64,000 bases of DNA. Source: Erythrobasidium yunnanense (Eukaryota > Basidiomycota > Cystobasidiomycetes > Erythrobasidiales > Erythrobasidiaceae). Every line of letters starts with the position of its first letter. The first letter of the stretch is position 1. This document shows positions 55,308 to 64,000 of this stretch, piece by piece. The notes below the pieces were generated by a model. It saw only the letters and a program-made list of their open reading frames with translations. It made no database searches and was not told the origin of the DNA. Location: the NCBI GenBank assembly GCA_001600175.1, contig BCJC01000005.1, forward strand, positions 1,220,471 through 1,284,470. Direction: 5' to 3'. A program made the position numbers and the translations under genes.

Positions 55308-57673
55308 ATGGTGACTACGCGAGCGCGGTCAGGCGCAACCAAAAAGCCAGAAGATACAGATGTCGCACTTCAGAAGACTTTTGGGAATCAGTCGCTGCTG
55401 GCCTGGGCGAGTGGATCCGCCAGAACGAAGACGTCCGGGACCGTGCGCAAATCTCAAAACTCTGCACCCATCTTGAACCTTCCTCTTGACATCCTATCTG
55501 TCGTGCGACTGCCCACCTGAATGTCTCTTCTCGGTGCGACTGCTGATCAATTTCTCTAGATCTTCTCCAAACTCCATCCACTGGATCTACTGAAATTAGG
55601 CAGAACATGCTATGATCTCAAGGCCTTCTTTCACTCGGAAGCCTCGAAATCAACTTGGAAAGCCAGCAGAAAGGCTCTTGGCTTTATCGTCACCGCCGAA
55701 GATGTCAATTTTGTGCGCGCCGCAAAAGAAGGGACATTCTGCCTTCCGGACTGTCCTACTTATCTATCCGAGCCTGCCTATGCTACTTTCTTGTTTATCC
55801 CTGTGTGCAGTGTGGGTGATCTGCCTCCTTGCGCAATAGGAAAACGCTAACGACCATCATGCCTCAGTACTGCTATACTGCGGGTTATCGTATGGTGGAT
55901 CTCTCGGCCTTCGGGACGAGAGCCTGTCGAACTTGTCAGTTGAAGGATTTAGTCTCGCTCAAAGCCCTCCAACTGGAGTGGAAGAAGGATGCAGACCCAC
56001 GTCTCTATGACATTCTGCCTCGAATGAAGGATCGAAACTCCAACAAAAAACCTAAACCTAGCGACAAGATATATCACAAGCCTACATGCCAAGTACTATT
56101 CGATAAATGTATGCAGTACGAGCTGGAAGTAAACTTCGACTCTAGAAAAGTCAGAGCCTTCTTTGCTAAAGGCGAGCAGGAAGTTGAGGAAAGGGAAGCC
56201 TTTGTGGAGAGCTATGCGGAGTACAAGACCGCAAAATCAAACCAGGATCACATCCTGTATCGTCGATATGAACGAGAGAGAGCGGACCGGATCGCACGAA
56301 ACAAGGCCTTGTGAGTTTTGGTGGTAACCAATATATAGCGCATCTCTATCACCTGCGTCTGATACGATGTCCAGTATTGCCATGAGGCTCGAACAGGAAG
56401 GTATTGAGACGTTTGTCACAGACTTAGAGGATTCAGGACGAGTTTCAAACTTGATAGTAAGCAATCGGAGTACTCATTCGATCAGTGCGAACTAACCTGG
56501 CGTCCACCTATAGAATGCCCTTAGAGAGGACTTAACCGAGCCAAACTTTGCCGAAATCAAGACTGAAGTGCTGAATTCATTGCAGCCTGTTCAAGAGCAG
56601 CGCCGCTATTTGACGGAGTTCTGGGACCCCGAAAATGCTCGGATTAGACATCTCTTGGACGAGTGCCGCACAACGCTTCCGCCTACGAGCGCCCTAGCCG
56701 AGTGCATGCGCCTGCCAGAATTTGTCAGACTCCCTACATGCAAGGCATTGGCGAATATGCCAGCATTCATCAATGGAGAGGAAGAGCAAAGGCTTGCTGT
56801 ATGGAATCAACACATTGACAGTGTTAAGCAGGACATCGCGTCTTGGATTTCAGCACAAGAGCAGTATATTCTTGGTCTGCTGGAAGAAGAGAAGGCAATA
56901 GCTTCACAAGATCCAAGTCAGCACGATCTCCTCGACCTGGACCTCGACCTGGACATGCTACGTATGCCGTTCATTAGGCTTGAATGTCACGAATGCGAAT
57001 CATTCCTGACCCTGGCAGAACTTCTCGTCCACGACTGCCCAGAGGCGTTTTCTCACCTCGGTCTCATGCACACACGGCGAAGATTGGCCGAAATGGGCAT
57101 TTCTACGGCGGAAGACTATAAAGCTCCCTTAAGCCTGAAAATTCTGAAGCACGATAATGTGGGATTGGACTGGCATGCAACCATGGTTGGCAAAGCAGTA
57201 TATGAAGCAGTAGTAGCAGTAGGCGGCGAGCCGCCACGGACAGCTCGTGAACTCAGACACAAAAAGGGCACTATCAATTGCGGCGCATGTCCTGAAGACA
57301 GTGGGGAGTATCAAGGAACCACCATACGCCTATGTGTAAGCTGCGCCTGCCTTCCTAGCATGGTCATCGCTGATATATATACGGCGACCAGCTCATGGCT
57401 CACGACAGACCTCCAATTCGCTCGGCGCGGCCGCACAAGAGCTTCGTCTACGAACTGCCCGAGGGGGGTTTGGATGCAGACGTCAACGACGACGCTGAAA
57501 CACCTCTGTTTCCATGGGCCGGTGCCTTCGGGGGCTACGACTCAGACGAGATTTCCGAGTCGTACTTGGACTATATGCATGGCGGGATGATGGCCGACAT
57601 TAATGCGGACATGATGATGGACATGATGATGGCAGGACAACCGTCTGATGATGATGAGGACTACAACTGGTAG
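55308..57673 (+). CDS. F-box-like Cys-rich protein, array copy 1 (intact)
   Basis: Probably a substrate adaptor of an SCF-type ligase. Six exons (55308-55502, 55560-55811, 55868-56310, 56375-56456, 56514-57335, 57392-57673) give 691 residues. After MVTTRARSGATKKPED comes an F-box-like helix set across intron 1 (LNLPLDILSVV, IFSKLHPLDLLKLGRTCYDLKAFF). Conserved Cys pairs follow: CRTCQLKDLVSLKAL, YHKPTC, CHECESFLTLAELLVHDC and CGAC, which look like zinc sites. The C-terminus differs from the other copies: it is acidic and Met-rich (MMADINADMMMDMMMAG, then SDDDEDYNW). It also has a short DLDLDLD run. It lacks the promoter block of copies 2-4 and shares a promoter with the BTB gene. The F-box call rests on pattern only. 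Confidence 0.75.
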
Positions 57674-57993
57674 GGCGGGACTTCACCCTCAGATGGGTTG
57701 ATCGAAGGCGCTAAAGAAGGGTTTCGTCAAGCGAGCGGATCTTAGATTCATGTAGTATTACATGTCAAGTTGCGTACAGCAGGTTCCTCTAGGTCTCTTA
57801 AAGCTCGGTAGTTCTCGGTTTTGAAGTCGCGAATAGTAACCGCGTCCAAGGCAGACAAGGGTGTGCAAAAGAGCAGTTTGTTGCGACTACAGCCTATATG
57901 TACATACTGTTAGCATGATGTCACACCAGGATTTGCTTTTGAGTGTGCCAATCTCGCTTTGTCCTCCTTACTTTCTGACCAACTCTTTCCAGG
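57674..57993. promoter_or_regulatory. Upstream region of array copy 2 with conserved block at 57826-57847
   Basis: 320 bp. The block reads GTCGCGAATAGTA, then AC, then CGCGTCC, starting 168 bp before the ATG. A TTGCGACTAC element follows at about 57881, an upstream ATGATG at 57915, and CTCTTTCCAGG just before the start codon. Confidence 0.6.
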
Positions 57994-60328
57994 ATGGTCA
58001 TGACAAGAAGCAGATCCGGGGCAGCGCCCAAACTGCCAGACCCAGACATAGCACTGCAGCACTCATTCTCAAATCAGTCTTTGCTCGCATGGGCGCATGG
58101 TACTCGAAAAAATACTAAGGAAGGGGTCGTGCGCAAGACGCAAAATACGACAAAGTCGATACTAAACCTCCCGCTAGATCTGCTCGCCATTGTGGGCTGC
58201 TCAAAAACCATGTCGCTGGCTCTCCATACTGACTCCTCCCCGCCTCGTCCACTGTAGATCTTCGGCTACATGGAGCCAATTTCGCTTGTACAACTGGGTA
58301 GGACATGCATCGACCTTAAACTCTTCCTGCACTCGCAAGCTTCCAAGTCTATCTGGACCTCAAGCCGAAAGGCTCTATCTTTCGACTTCACGGAGGATGA
58401 CGTGAAAATCCTCGGTGGATGGTCTAGTAACCAGCTTGGCACATATTCGCTTCCGAGCTGCCCCGGCTGGCTGACAGAACCTGGCTATGCAGCCTTTCTG
58501 TTCGAACCTACTTGCTCGGTGCGCGTCGAGTCCCGCTCATCGTGCAACGGGTCTGAACTGATTTTATCGCAGTTCTGTCACGAGGGTGGCGCCAACATCA
58601 GTAAAGGCTCACTTACTTCCCGGGTCTGCTACGCCTGTCGCCACAAAGACTTTGTTAGTCTGAAGCAGCTCGAGTCTGAGTGGAAGACAGATGCAGACTC
58701 CCGCCTCTACGACATGCTCCCGCGCCTCGATGATGGACGCAACGGGAAGAAGCCGAGTAAAGCAGCCAAAATCTACCACAAGCCGACGTGTCAATCTATT
58801 TGCGACAAGGCCTTGGAATATGAGGTACAAGTCAAGTTCAACGCCAGGATGATGAATGCATTCTACAACAGGGGAGAAGAGGAGATCAAAGAAAGGATCG
58901 CGTTCATCGCTGCCTTCAGCGCCTACCAGAAAATGAAAGATACTTTGGGACAAGTCGCATATCTAAAGAAAAACCGCGAAGAGGAGGAAAGATACCAGCG
59001 AAACAGAGCTTCGTAAGTCTTTTGGAGTTCTTGCCAACCAATCCGCTAACACTCTTATCAACTCAGTGTCATTACCCGTCTTGAGGCAGAAGGACGCGAG
59101 ACTTTCGGGACCGATCTCGACGATTGCTACCTTGCTTCAGGTGTTATAGTGAGTCGTTACGAGGCAGATCGGACTGTTGTGATGTACCTGATACATTGAC
59201 AACCCAGAGACGAGAAAAGGGCGAAATGAGCGACGCCATTTTTGCTAGGATCAAGGATGATCTTGTCAAGCATTTGGACCCTGTTCAAGAGCAGAGAAGA
59301 TATCTCACCTCCTACTATGATCCTGGAACCGTGGCAATCAGAACTCGCCTAGATGACTTTCGTATGACTCTCCCTTCAGTGTCTGGTATGGACGGACGCA
59401 TTCGACTAGCAGACTTCGTGGAGCTACCCACCTGCAAAGCTCTAGCAGCTAATGCAAACTTCGTCAATGGAGAGGAGGCAGAACGTCAGGCTATCTGGGC
59501 AGAGAATCTGAGCAAAGTGCTGGAGAACATCATCGAGTGGGTGAACGCGCAGGAAGAGATTATTCTCTCTATCCTACAAGAGAAGAAGGACGCCAACTGG
59601 CAGTCATGCATCCAATGCAACGCCATGTCTACGATGTCGAGCTCGACAGGGCTTATCTTCGTATGCCGTACACTGTCTTCATCTGCCCCAGGTGCCAGAT
59701 CACGACACCTCATAGACTCGAAAATGTGCTGGTACACAACTGTTATGCAAAGTTTCTTAAACACAATCTCTCGAGCACCCGCAGACGGCTCAGGGAGGAA
59801 GGCCTCGATCTTACCGGCGTGTTCTCGTCGCCTCTGCTCTTCAAGAACGATAATCTACTGTTGGACTGGGAAAAGACGTCTGTTGGCAAGAATATCTACG
59901 AAGCTGTTGTCGCTGCCGGCGGGGAGGCCCCGACAACGTTCACCGCTCGACACAAAAAGGGACAGCTCAGCTGTGCAGACTGCGCAGAAGGTACCGTTGA
60001 GCGTATCGGAACTAGCGTTGCATTGAGCGTAAGCTGCTAGCATCTGCACTCTATCTCATCGTCGCTGAGAACCTGTACCGTCTAACAGTACGCCAATCAT
60101 GCTGGCGCCTCGTACTACGGCAACTCCAAAACTCATCGTAATTTCACATATGTACTGCCTGAAGGAGGATTGGAAACCGATCTCAACAACGATGCACCCA
60201 CTCCTCCTGCATATCTACAATTTGCCGATGACTTTTCAGACGAGTTCGATTCGGATATGGATCCCGAAGACTACCTGGTGATGATGGAAGATGCCGCAAA
60301 CATGATAGGCGCCGACTTGTTCGACTAG
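57994..60328 (+). pseudogene. F-box-like Cys-rich protein, array copy 2 (one frame break)
   Basis: Same architecture as copies 1 and 3. Exons 57994-58191, 58258-58518, 58573-59012, 59067-59148, 59208-60028 and 60089-60328. The F-box-like part (LNLPLDLLAIV, GYMEPISLVQLGRTCIDLKLFLHS), CYACRHKDFVSLKQL, YHKPTC, CPRCQITTPHRLENVLVHNC and CADC are all present. Exon 5 is 821 nt, not a multiple of three: near 59585-59610 the frame changes just before QRHVYDVELDRAYL, where copy 3 is continuous. No intron fits there, so this is a one-base loss in the gene or a sequence error. The second intron (58519-58572) is 54 nt without a stop, so retention would keep the frame and add 18 residues. The C-terminus is acidic (DSDMDPEDYLVMMED). 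Confidence 0.72.
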
Positions 60329-60747
60329 AATCCGAAGTAGCGGCAGAAGGACTGCGCCTAAGAAGGAATAGATGCGGTGCCACATATCGAATACCACAAT
60401 TCGATACGATCTGCAGTCGTGTAGCGATAGTTGCTTTCGTTTGGCATGCTGAACTGCCTTGCCCCATTGCTATCGGGCTAACTGCCAGACCTCAGACGAG
60501 GCTGCTCGCTGATCAGCTTTACCACTGGCTATCCTTATAGTCTGTCTTTGCTCGCTGATTCGGTAGTTTTCGGTGACAGAGTCGCGAATAGTAGACGCGT
60601 CCAAGCGCCGACAAGGCTGCTACAAGGGCAGTCCGTTGCGACTACAGGCATTATACACGTACTGCTATCATGATGTCACATAAAGATCTGCTTTTGACAT
60701 TGCGAATTTGCTTTGTCCTTCTTGGTTCCCGACCAACTCTTTCCAGG
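60329..60747. promoter_or_regulatory. Upstream region of array copy 3 with conserved block at 60581-60602
   Basis: 419 bp. The block reads GTCGCGAATAGTA, then GA, then CGCGTCC, starting 167 bp before the ATG, followed by TTGCGACTAC and an upstream ATGATG at 60670. In this copy the upstream ATG is in frame with the main start (78 nt). Confidence 0.6.
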
Positions 60748-63078
60748 ATGGTCACAACAAGAAGCAGATCTGGCGCAGCGCCCAAGCTGCCTGACCCAGA
60801 CATAGCGCTACAGCATTCATTCTCCAATCAATCTCTGCTTTCGTGGGCCAATGGATCTCGAAAAAACTCGAAGCCAGGGGTCGTGCGCAAACCGCAAAAC
60901 GCCTCGATCCTGAATCTGCCGCTGGACCTGCTCGCTATTGTGTGTTGCTATTGATTAGCTAGCTCCAGCGTCACTAACTGCCGTATCCCTCCACGCGTCA
61001 CAGATTTTCTCGGAATGTCATCCAAGCTCCCTTCTGCAATTCGGCAGAACGTGCTATGATCTCAAGCTATTCTTCCACTCACCAGCATCAAAACCTATTT
61101 GGATTGCATCTCGAAAGGCTTTATCGTTCACTATTGCCGAAGACGATATCAAGGGTCTTTCCTCCTTCCACCGAACGTTCAACACTGGCACTTTCGCGCT
61201 TCCACCCTGCCCCTCCTTCTTTGTAGAACCTCAGTATGCAGCTTTTTTATTTGATCGCACCTGCTCAGTGAGTGGTCAGCCGGCTCGAATAGAGACTGAT
61301 CACTGACGATCTCTTCGTCCGCCGCAGTTCTGCTCCGAAAAAGACTCGTTCACAGGCAATGGTTCGTTGATCGCCCGAACCTGTCGAAGTTGCTACAGGA
61401 AGGACTTTGTCTCGAAGAAGGAGTTGATGGCCGAATGGAAAGACGATGCAGACCCACGCCTCTACGACATGCTTCCTCAGTTCCAGAGTACAAATTGGCG
61501 AGGGAAGAAGCCAACCAAAGCCGCAAGAGTCTATCACAAGCCTACATGCCAACAAATTTTCGACAAAGCCGAAAAGTATGATATGGAAGTCAAGTTCAAT
61601 GCAAGAATGATGAACGCGTTTTACGCGAAAGGAGATGAGGAGATCAAGGAGAGGACTGCTTTTGCGGCTGCGAACTCTGCCTTTGAGGATGCCACGAGAA
61701 GCTTGGCCCAAATCGAGGCAAGACAGAAGACGCAAAAGATAGAAGAGAGACTGCAGAGAAACAAAGCATCGTATGTCAAAGTCTCTCCGATGCTTACATC
61801 CTGCTGAAACAGCTTACAGTATCGTCCTGAGACTCGAGGCAGACGGTCGCGAAGTGTTTGGAAGTGATATCGACGATTGCTCTACTGCATTGAATCTGAT
61901 TGTGAGCTTTCAGCGGAGCATTGTTCCTATTGCAGCACTGATACTGATCGGTCGTCGTTACAGAAAACGCAAGAAAAGGAGATAGATGACGAGATTTATG
62001 CAAGAATCAAAGACCGCCTGATCGAGTACCTGGAACCCGTACAGCAAGAGAGACGATACCTTGAAACTTACTATGACCCTGAGAACACCCGCATTAGAGG
62101 CATCATGGACGGCTTTCGCCTCACTCTGCCCGTTCAGGATGGTCTCGCAGGACAGCTTCGCCTCGCCGATTTCCTGGAGCTCCCAACATGCAAGGCTCTG
62201 CAGGCTAATTCGAGCTTTATCAATGGTGAGGACGAGGCTAGAAAGACAATCTGGGCAGAAAATTTGGAGAGTATTCGTGGAGATATTGCTGCGTGGATTG
62301 ATCAGAAGGAGACCGCCATACTAGTTCGATTACAAGAAAAGAAGAACTCCAAGCTGGAGAACATGCACAACACACAACGCCATGTCTATGACGTGGCTCT
62401 ATCAAAGGATTACCTCCACAAGCCTTATGCCATGTTCACATGCACAACTTGCCAAGGCCTTGGAACTCTCAAAATGGAACAGGTTCTGACCCACAACTGT
62501 TTCGCTACCTATCTTCCCTATAATCTCCCCAATACGCGACGACGCCTTAGCGACCAGGGTAACAACACACACAGCACATTCTCGGCTCCCTTTCTGGTCT
62601 CTAGTCCTAGGCTCGACCTTCAGTGGGAGAAGACCTCGACCTGCAAGAACATCTACGACGCAGTTGTGGCAGCCGGCGGCTCCCCTCCAGCTACTGTTGC
62701 TGCACTTCAACGCAGAAAAGGAAAGCTTACTTGCGATGACTGTCCCGAAGGCAGTGTCGAGCGAAATGGTACTACCGTGGCAGTCTCTGTGAGTCGAAAG
62801 TAACGATATCTTGCAAGCTTTAGCTAACTAAGCGGTGCCGGTCTCGTGCATAGTATACGAGCCATATCCCACTCGCCTACTACAGCAGCGCCAAGACTCA
62901 TCGAAACTTCACTTACGTCGTCTCTGAAGGTGGAGAAGAGGCGGATGTCGCGAGCGATACACCTAGTCCTCCTCCATATCCGCAATTTGGCGTCGATCTT
63001 TCGGACGAACTCAACTCTGAAGTGGATCCTGACGAATATCTGGACATGATGTTCGGTGGCTTACACGACTTGATGTAG
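60748..63078 (+). CDS. F-box-like Cys-rich protein, array copy 3 (intact)
   Basis: Six exons (60748-60939, 61004-61267, 61328-61770, 61820-61901, 61964-62788, 62854-63078) give 676 residues with no break. The N-terminus MVTTRSRSGAAPKLPDPDIAL is shared with copies 2 and 4. The F-box-like part is LNLPLDLLAI joined to FSECHPSSLLQFGRTCYDLKLFFHSP. Cys pairs: CRSCYRKDFVSKKEL, YHKPTC, CTTCQGLGTLKMEQVLTHNC and CDDC. A shared block VQQERRYLETYYDPENTRIRG and WEKTSTCKNIYDAVVAAGGSPP mark the C-terminal domain. It ends acidic (LSDELNSEVDPDEYLDMM). An in-frame ATG at 60670 would add 26 residues, but the paralogues do not support it as the main start. Confidence 0.78.
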
Positions 63079-63411
63079 GCTATACATCGCGCATCGCCAA
63101 ACAATGTTTTTACCAAAACAAAACAACTTAGACAAAGAGGAGGACTTTCGACATCTCTGTAGCCATAGTTCATGTTTCGTCGTTTCCTGCTAGCTGCTTC
63201 TATCAATGCTATCAATTTACTGCTGAAGCTGCGATGGGACCTAGTCGCGAATAGTAGGCGCGTCCAGCTGATAAGGGAAACGAGCGGAAAGAGCAGTAAT
63301 GTGCGACTGCATTCATTAATGGCATACTATCTCATATGTCACTCCCAGAATTGCGTTTTAGAAACGGCGATCTCGCTTTGTCCCGCTTGCTTCCCGACCG
63401 ACTCTTCCAGC
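63079..63411. promoter_or_regulatory. Upstream region of array copy 4 with conserved block at 63244-63265
   Basis: 333 bp. The block reads GTCGCGAATAGTA, then GG, then CGCGTCC, starting 168 bp before the ATG. The later TTGCGACTAC element is changed to GTGCGACTGC. The sequence between block and ATG is clearly related to copies 2 and 3. Confidence 0.6.
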
Positions 63412-64000
63412 ATGGTGACGACGAGAAGCAAGTCTGGCGCTGCGCCGAAGCTCCCAGAGCCAGACATAGCATTGCAGAATTCATTCTCTAATCAGTCTCT
63501 GCTCTCGTGGGCAAATGGATCTCGAAGAAACTCGAAGCCAGGGGTCGTGCGCCAACCGCAAAACGCTTCGATTCTCAATCTGCCGCTGGACTTGCTTGCT
63601 ATCGTGTGTTGATGTTGTTTGAGTCGCCTTGTTCCAGCTGATGTCGCCTCTGCTTCACGACTTCCAGATCTTTTCTGAATGCCATCCCCTTTCCTTGCTC
63701 AACTTGGGTCGAACATGTTATGACCTCAAGCTATTCTTTCATTCTCCAGCTGCTAGACCTATTTGGCTCGCAAGCAGAAATACTCTCTCCTTCACTATCA
63801 CGGAAGAAGACGTCGAAGGACTGTACGACTGGGACACACTTTCAAAGATAGGCAGCTTCGCTCTGCCTCCCTGTCCCTTGCACTTCTCCGAACCGGCGTA
63901 CGCAGCCTTTCTATTTGATTCCTCATGTTCAGTGAGTGCTCAAGCTTGGCCAACGTGTGCGAGCTGATTCTATCTCCCGCTGTCCAGTTTTGTGCTGAGA
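63412..64000 (+). CDS. F-box-like Cys-rich protein, array copy 4 (cut by window edge)
   Basis: Exons 63412-63603 and 63668-63931 are complete and exon 3 begins at 63988. They encode MVTTRSKSGAAPKLPEPDIAL, the F-box-like segment (LNLPLDLLAI, FSECHPLSLLNLGRTCYDLKLFFHSP) and the first part of the following domain. Exon 1 (192 nt) and exon 2 (264 nt) have exactly the lengths of copy 3, suggesting copies 3 and 4 are the closest pair. No break is seen in the visible part. Confidence 0.75.

Follow-up and report, generated by a model that had tools for sequence, protein, structure and literature searches.

The closest described systems are the F-box proteins of SCF (Skp1-cullin-F-box) ubiquitin ligases, represented in Pfam by PF00646 and PF12937. 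In basidiomycetes, large F-box families carry a LP.CP..LSEP.YA..LF motif, and fungal F-box proteins often have substrate parts that no Pfam family covers. The part of PMC7991009 that deals with such proteins gives 16 of them for Ustilago maydis and 17 for Puccinia graminis, and has no F-box cluster for Macrophomina; a portion of PMC4469406 contains a ten-column table in which PF00646 counts go from 3 to 43, and F-box is found in a section of PMC8893723 among orthogroups specific to complex multicellularity. Searching the literature by theme, not by species, we found no paper on the locus described here.

The locus is a tandem array of six genes, c1 to c6, which resemble SCF F-box proteins in having an F-box near the N-terminus, in a genome that contains clustered F-box matches as well as Skp1 and cullin genes. 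They differ in exon 5, where CxxC and HxC pairs occur and for which neither a substantial Pfam match nor a PDB chain was found. As the large basidiomycete families probably do, they have a CP..SEP.YA-like stretch and CxxC pairs after the F-box. Most likely, the six F-box proteins form an old tandem family of SCF substrate receptors. What is established is the F-box sequence match, the conserved gene structure, the invariant Cys and His residues, purifying selection on average and the fact that the genome has genes for Skp1 and cullin; from what is known of the family in general, a role as degradation adaptors is likely.

The window, i.e. the whole stretch of 64 000 nucleotides that was analysed (C5:1220471-1284470, in a genome of 20.9 Mb and 10 contigs), is eukaryotic, having many short introns, and probably fungal to judge by its genes. 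HET and Mating_C searches gave no match in this genome, but as none of 14 control genomes was matched either, they tell little about the place of the fungus. The genes c1 to c3 together with the 5′ part of c4 lie within the window. In window numbering, the genes begin at 55308, 57994, 60748 and 63412 and, past the window, at 66193 and 68920, with start-to-start spacings from c1 to c6 of 2686, 2754, 2664, 2781 and 2727 bp. Splice models for the first three, all on the + strand, were derived from homology between copies. The gene c1 (55308..57673, 691 aa) has six exons (55308-55502, 55560-55811, 55868-56310, 56375-56456, 56514-57335 and 57392-57673) separated by GT..AG introns of 56-64 nt; c2 (57994..60328) also has six, the fifth being at 59208-60028; and c3 (60748..63078, 676 aa) is made of exons 60748-60939, 61004-61267, 61328-61770, 61820-61901, 61964-62788 and 62854-63078. 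Reading on into the same contig gave c4 (63412..65733, + strand, of which 63412..64000 is in the window), c5 (66193-68451) and c6 (68920-71141), the last two beyond the window. To the right of c6 comes a gene for phosphomannose isomerase (PMI_typeI_hel, E 2.7e-16). On the left, at 53.5-55.05 kb on the - strand, a candidate BTB gene was dropped, as none of its three frames had a Pfam match at E≤0.01. The sequence-only reading had announced at least four head-to-tail paralogues with a unit of about 2.7 kb; this holds, and extension to the right brings the count to six. Matches between copies have E-values from 2.0e-98 to 1.4e-41 for exon 5 and from 1.6e-48 to 4.2e-17 for exons 1-3, the weakest exon match being that of exon 1 between c5 and c2 (E 1.3e-4), and the likeness between copies is not a matter of chance.

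Assignment to the F-box class relies on profile matches. PF12937 and PF00646 match all six copies at E≤1 (best values 9.3e-6 and 1.8e-5), and as spliced N-terminal parts four of the six pass a curated F-box cut-off: c1 with both PF12937 (25.8 bits) and PF00646 (24.9 bits), c2 and c6 with PF00646 (24.7 and 21.7 bits) and c3 with PF13013 (22.4 bits). No F-box cut-off was reached by c4 or by the spliced c5 protein, for which PF00646 scored 19.2 and 17.5 bits, respectively, versus the required 20.5. In the genome scan, c5 passes the PF00646 cut-off with 21.0 bits and falls below that of PF12937 (23.1 versus 24.3). It is the only array copy seen in the scans with these two models; the other five are absent because introns split the domain, intron 1 falling inside the F-box, so that searches by exon see it poorly. 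The Pfam match across copies is thus a modest one. When the PDB was searched with an N-terminal profile, FBXW7 and FBXO31 came up at E 0.84 and 0.91, ranked below ten unrelated matches, and predicted structures were poor, with a mean pLDDT of 44.8 for exon 5 (two sequences) and 61.5 for exon 3 (three sequences). As far as sequence goes, the F-box-like character proposed at the outset is right. The N-terminal segment SGAAPKLPDPDIALQ, pointed out in the sequence-only reading, is exact in two of the six copies (c2 and c3), with one change in c4 and more in c1, c5 and c6. By binding Skp1, the N-terminal F-box would bring each protein into an SCF ubiquitin ligase.

The conservation of cysteines, noted earlier from the letters, is clear: of the alignable columns in which c3 has a Cys, 12 of 16 are invariant across copies, whereas for columns of all kinds the figure is 110 of 661 (Fisher p 2.7e-7). 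Trp is kept as strongly as Cys (5 of 6 columns invariant), and 5 of 12 His columns are invariant. The invariant pairs (c3 numbering) are C151xxC154, C171xxC174 and H222xxxC226 after the F-box, and C487xxC490, H504xC506 and C584xxC587 in exon 5; C81, C133, H89, H606 and H618 are further invariant residues. In the copies scanned, no Pfam zinc family scored over its cut-off. The pattern of residues suggests that the Cys/His-rich segments may hold zinc and thereby brace the fold.

Another conserved part is the 5′ end of c2, c3 and c4. The 200 bp before their ATG codons (57794..57993, 60548..60747 and 63212..63411, all on the + strand), a stretch that the three share, are 54-75% identical per 100 bp; exon 1 is 77-86% identical, against 55-67% for the other exons, and intron 1 46-52%. 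At third positions of codons for the same amino acid, exon 1 of c3 and c4 differs significantly from the other exons (17/55 versus 169/302, p 7e-4), and the same test is not clear in the other two pairs, with p 0.17 for c2/c3 and 0.32 for c2/c4; with fourfold sites, the p-values are 0.008 for c3/c4, 0.03 for c2/c3 and 0.11 for c2/c4. Gene conversion, clearest between c3 and c4, and constraint both fit these data. One may go further and see in the array a class of zinc-braced F-box receptors having a C-terminal domain unlike known ones, i.e. six different specificities kept together at one locus under a common 5′ end, of which the promoter and the first exon would be conserved or homogenised in c2-c4, but we regard this more specific proposal as rather doubtful.

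How old the array is, and how it is selected, bears on a different interpretation. Between copies, proteins are 38-60% identical (20 comparisons for 15 gene pairs, c2 being taken in two pieces) and pS is 0.68-0.83. The dN/dS ratio, a whole-gene measure from Nei-Gojobori counts, is 0.09-0.34 in 11 of the 20 comparisons; in the other 9, dS is infinite, i.e. saturated. Neither a dN/dS above 1, in the 11 comparisons with finite dS, nor a low synonymous divergence was seen, as would point to positive selection or recent expansion. Since synonymous sites are near saturation and dN/dS is low, the array is an old one on which selection has, on average, been purifying, and its description by the sequence-only reading as 'growing' and 'fast-evolving' is not borne out by these values. 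That reading also held that copies differ most in the tail after the last intron. This is correct for 13 of the 15 gene pairs, in which exon 6 has the highest pN; for c5/c6 exons 6 and 4 are equal, and for c2/c3 exon 6 does not rank first. Such a tail, its mostly acidic part being absent from c6, could be that of a fast-diversifying recognition family (for self/non-self, clearance of foreign proteins or host interaction) in which selection keeps the tail variable, and the numerous F-box clusters in the genome would agree with this. However, the near-saturated synonymous sites, the low dN/dS and the lack of recent copies speak against it, and the divergence of the tail could also reflect relaxed constraint on a C-terminus that is acidic and disordered; we therefore consider such a family unlikely. 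If the proteins are, as we prefer to think, SCF substrate receptors, their C-terminal half and variable, mostly acidic tail would select substrates that differ between copies.

Another possibility is that these are F-box proteins acting outside SCF, e.g. Skp1-bound regulators without ubiquitin transfer. What could be taken in its favour is that, in exon 5 of five of the six copies (c2 was not scanned), no WD40 or LRR substrate repeat was found with the corresponding models at E≤1. The best Pfam family for the same five exons had an E-value of 0.071, and exon 5 had no PDB chain at E≤10. We know of nothing specific against such regulators beyond the fact that substrate parts foreign to Pfam are commonplace in fungal F-box proteins, and we find a role outside SCF improbable.

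Single-protein searches of the genome at E≤0.001 found the array family nowhere else. At E≤10 there was one weak match to c5, at C1:1268286-1268723 (E 0.41, 24% identity over residues 23-166); it overlaps a PF12937 match and is a possible distant relative outside the array. F-box domains as such are abundant: at E≤0.01, the genome scan gave at least 109 PF12937 matches, 91 of them over the cut-off of the model, and at least 52 PF00646 matches. As a control, the PF12937 scan gave a match in only one of 14 control genomes, below cut-off. For 58 of the 109 matches, another was present within 4 kb; when the matches were placed at random 1000 times, this number averaged 4.3 and never exceeded 18. 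There are 11 groups of three or more when PF12937 matches are linked up to 6 kb, the c1-c6 array entering as one match. In 20 regions picked for close matches, frames of at least 150 aa form 11 groups of related frames, which, leaving aside one group that is not F-box-like, are 22-61% identical, the F-box not being confirmed frame by frame. The clusters at C1:3272501-3309093, C1:1310364-1322013, C5:980141-986224 and C5:1009216-1014997 are like the array in that related frames lie close together; they are unlike it in sequence, as c1 and c3-c6 (c2 was not queried) matched the frames of these regions with an E-value of 0.20 at best. At C1:523000-531999 and C1:534000-542999, F-box frames stand among three frames of another family, 62-74% alike, which may be cytochrome P450-like. 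With so many F-box matches clustered genome-wide, the array is one such cluster among many and, like the others, may have arisen by old unequal crossing-over. The Skp1 models had 2 matches in the genome, and cullin models had 12 exon matches at 4 loci.

The gene structures depart from each other in two places. Introns measure 48-66 nt across copies and exon 4 is 82 bp in all six. The intron phases, said at first to be identical, are indeed 0,0,2,0,0 in c1, c3, c4 and c6; c2 has the same phases up to exon 5 and c5 has them less intron 1. In c5, this intron is missing precisely at the exon border, which leaves the F-box within one exon (66193-66642). It may have been lost in c5 or gained in the other copies, as no fork is strongly supported in a tree built from c1, c3 to c6 and the first of the two c2 pieces (c2-c4 are grouped at 82/82). 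The other departure is in exon 5 of c2, where the reading frame is off by one base with respect to the five other copies. Compared with c3, the piece 3′ of the frame change still has a pN of 0.29 for a pS of 0.70; being thus constrained, it indicates that the change is recent, is an error or is hidden by an extra intron; c2 may be a pseudogene, contain a sequence error or have one more intron. That the whole array might be an assembly artefact or a set of decaying pseudogenes, as this frame change could suggest, is very hard to believe given the constraint persisting downstream of it, frames that are open over all exons in five of the six copies, and a protein identity too low for assembly duplicates.

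The gap between c5 and c6 appears to have kept a trace of past rearrangement. Beyond the window, at 68651-68780 (C5:1289121-1289250), it is similar to the 5′ end of the phosphomannose isomerase gene (132 aligned columns at 73%, E 3e-12). The alignment score is 86, versus at most 28 in 500 shuffles and 16-19 for the other four gaps. This looks like the remnant of a duplication that extended beyond c6 into the neighbouring gene. Because the two genes flanking the relic, c5 and c6, have diverged more from one another at their synonymous sites (pS 0.75) than the relic has, it may also come from a later exchange.

On present evidence, the array is ordinary in kind. Six F-box copies, among which there is a single intron difference and a single frame change and whose C-terminal domain has no name, would be useful, in a genome with so many F-box clusters, for questions about how substrate receptors diverge.
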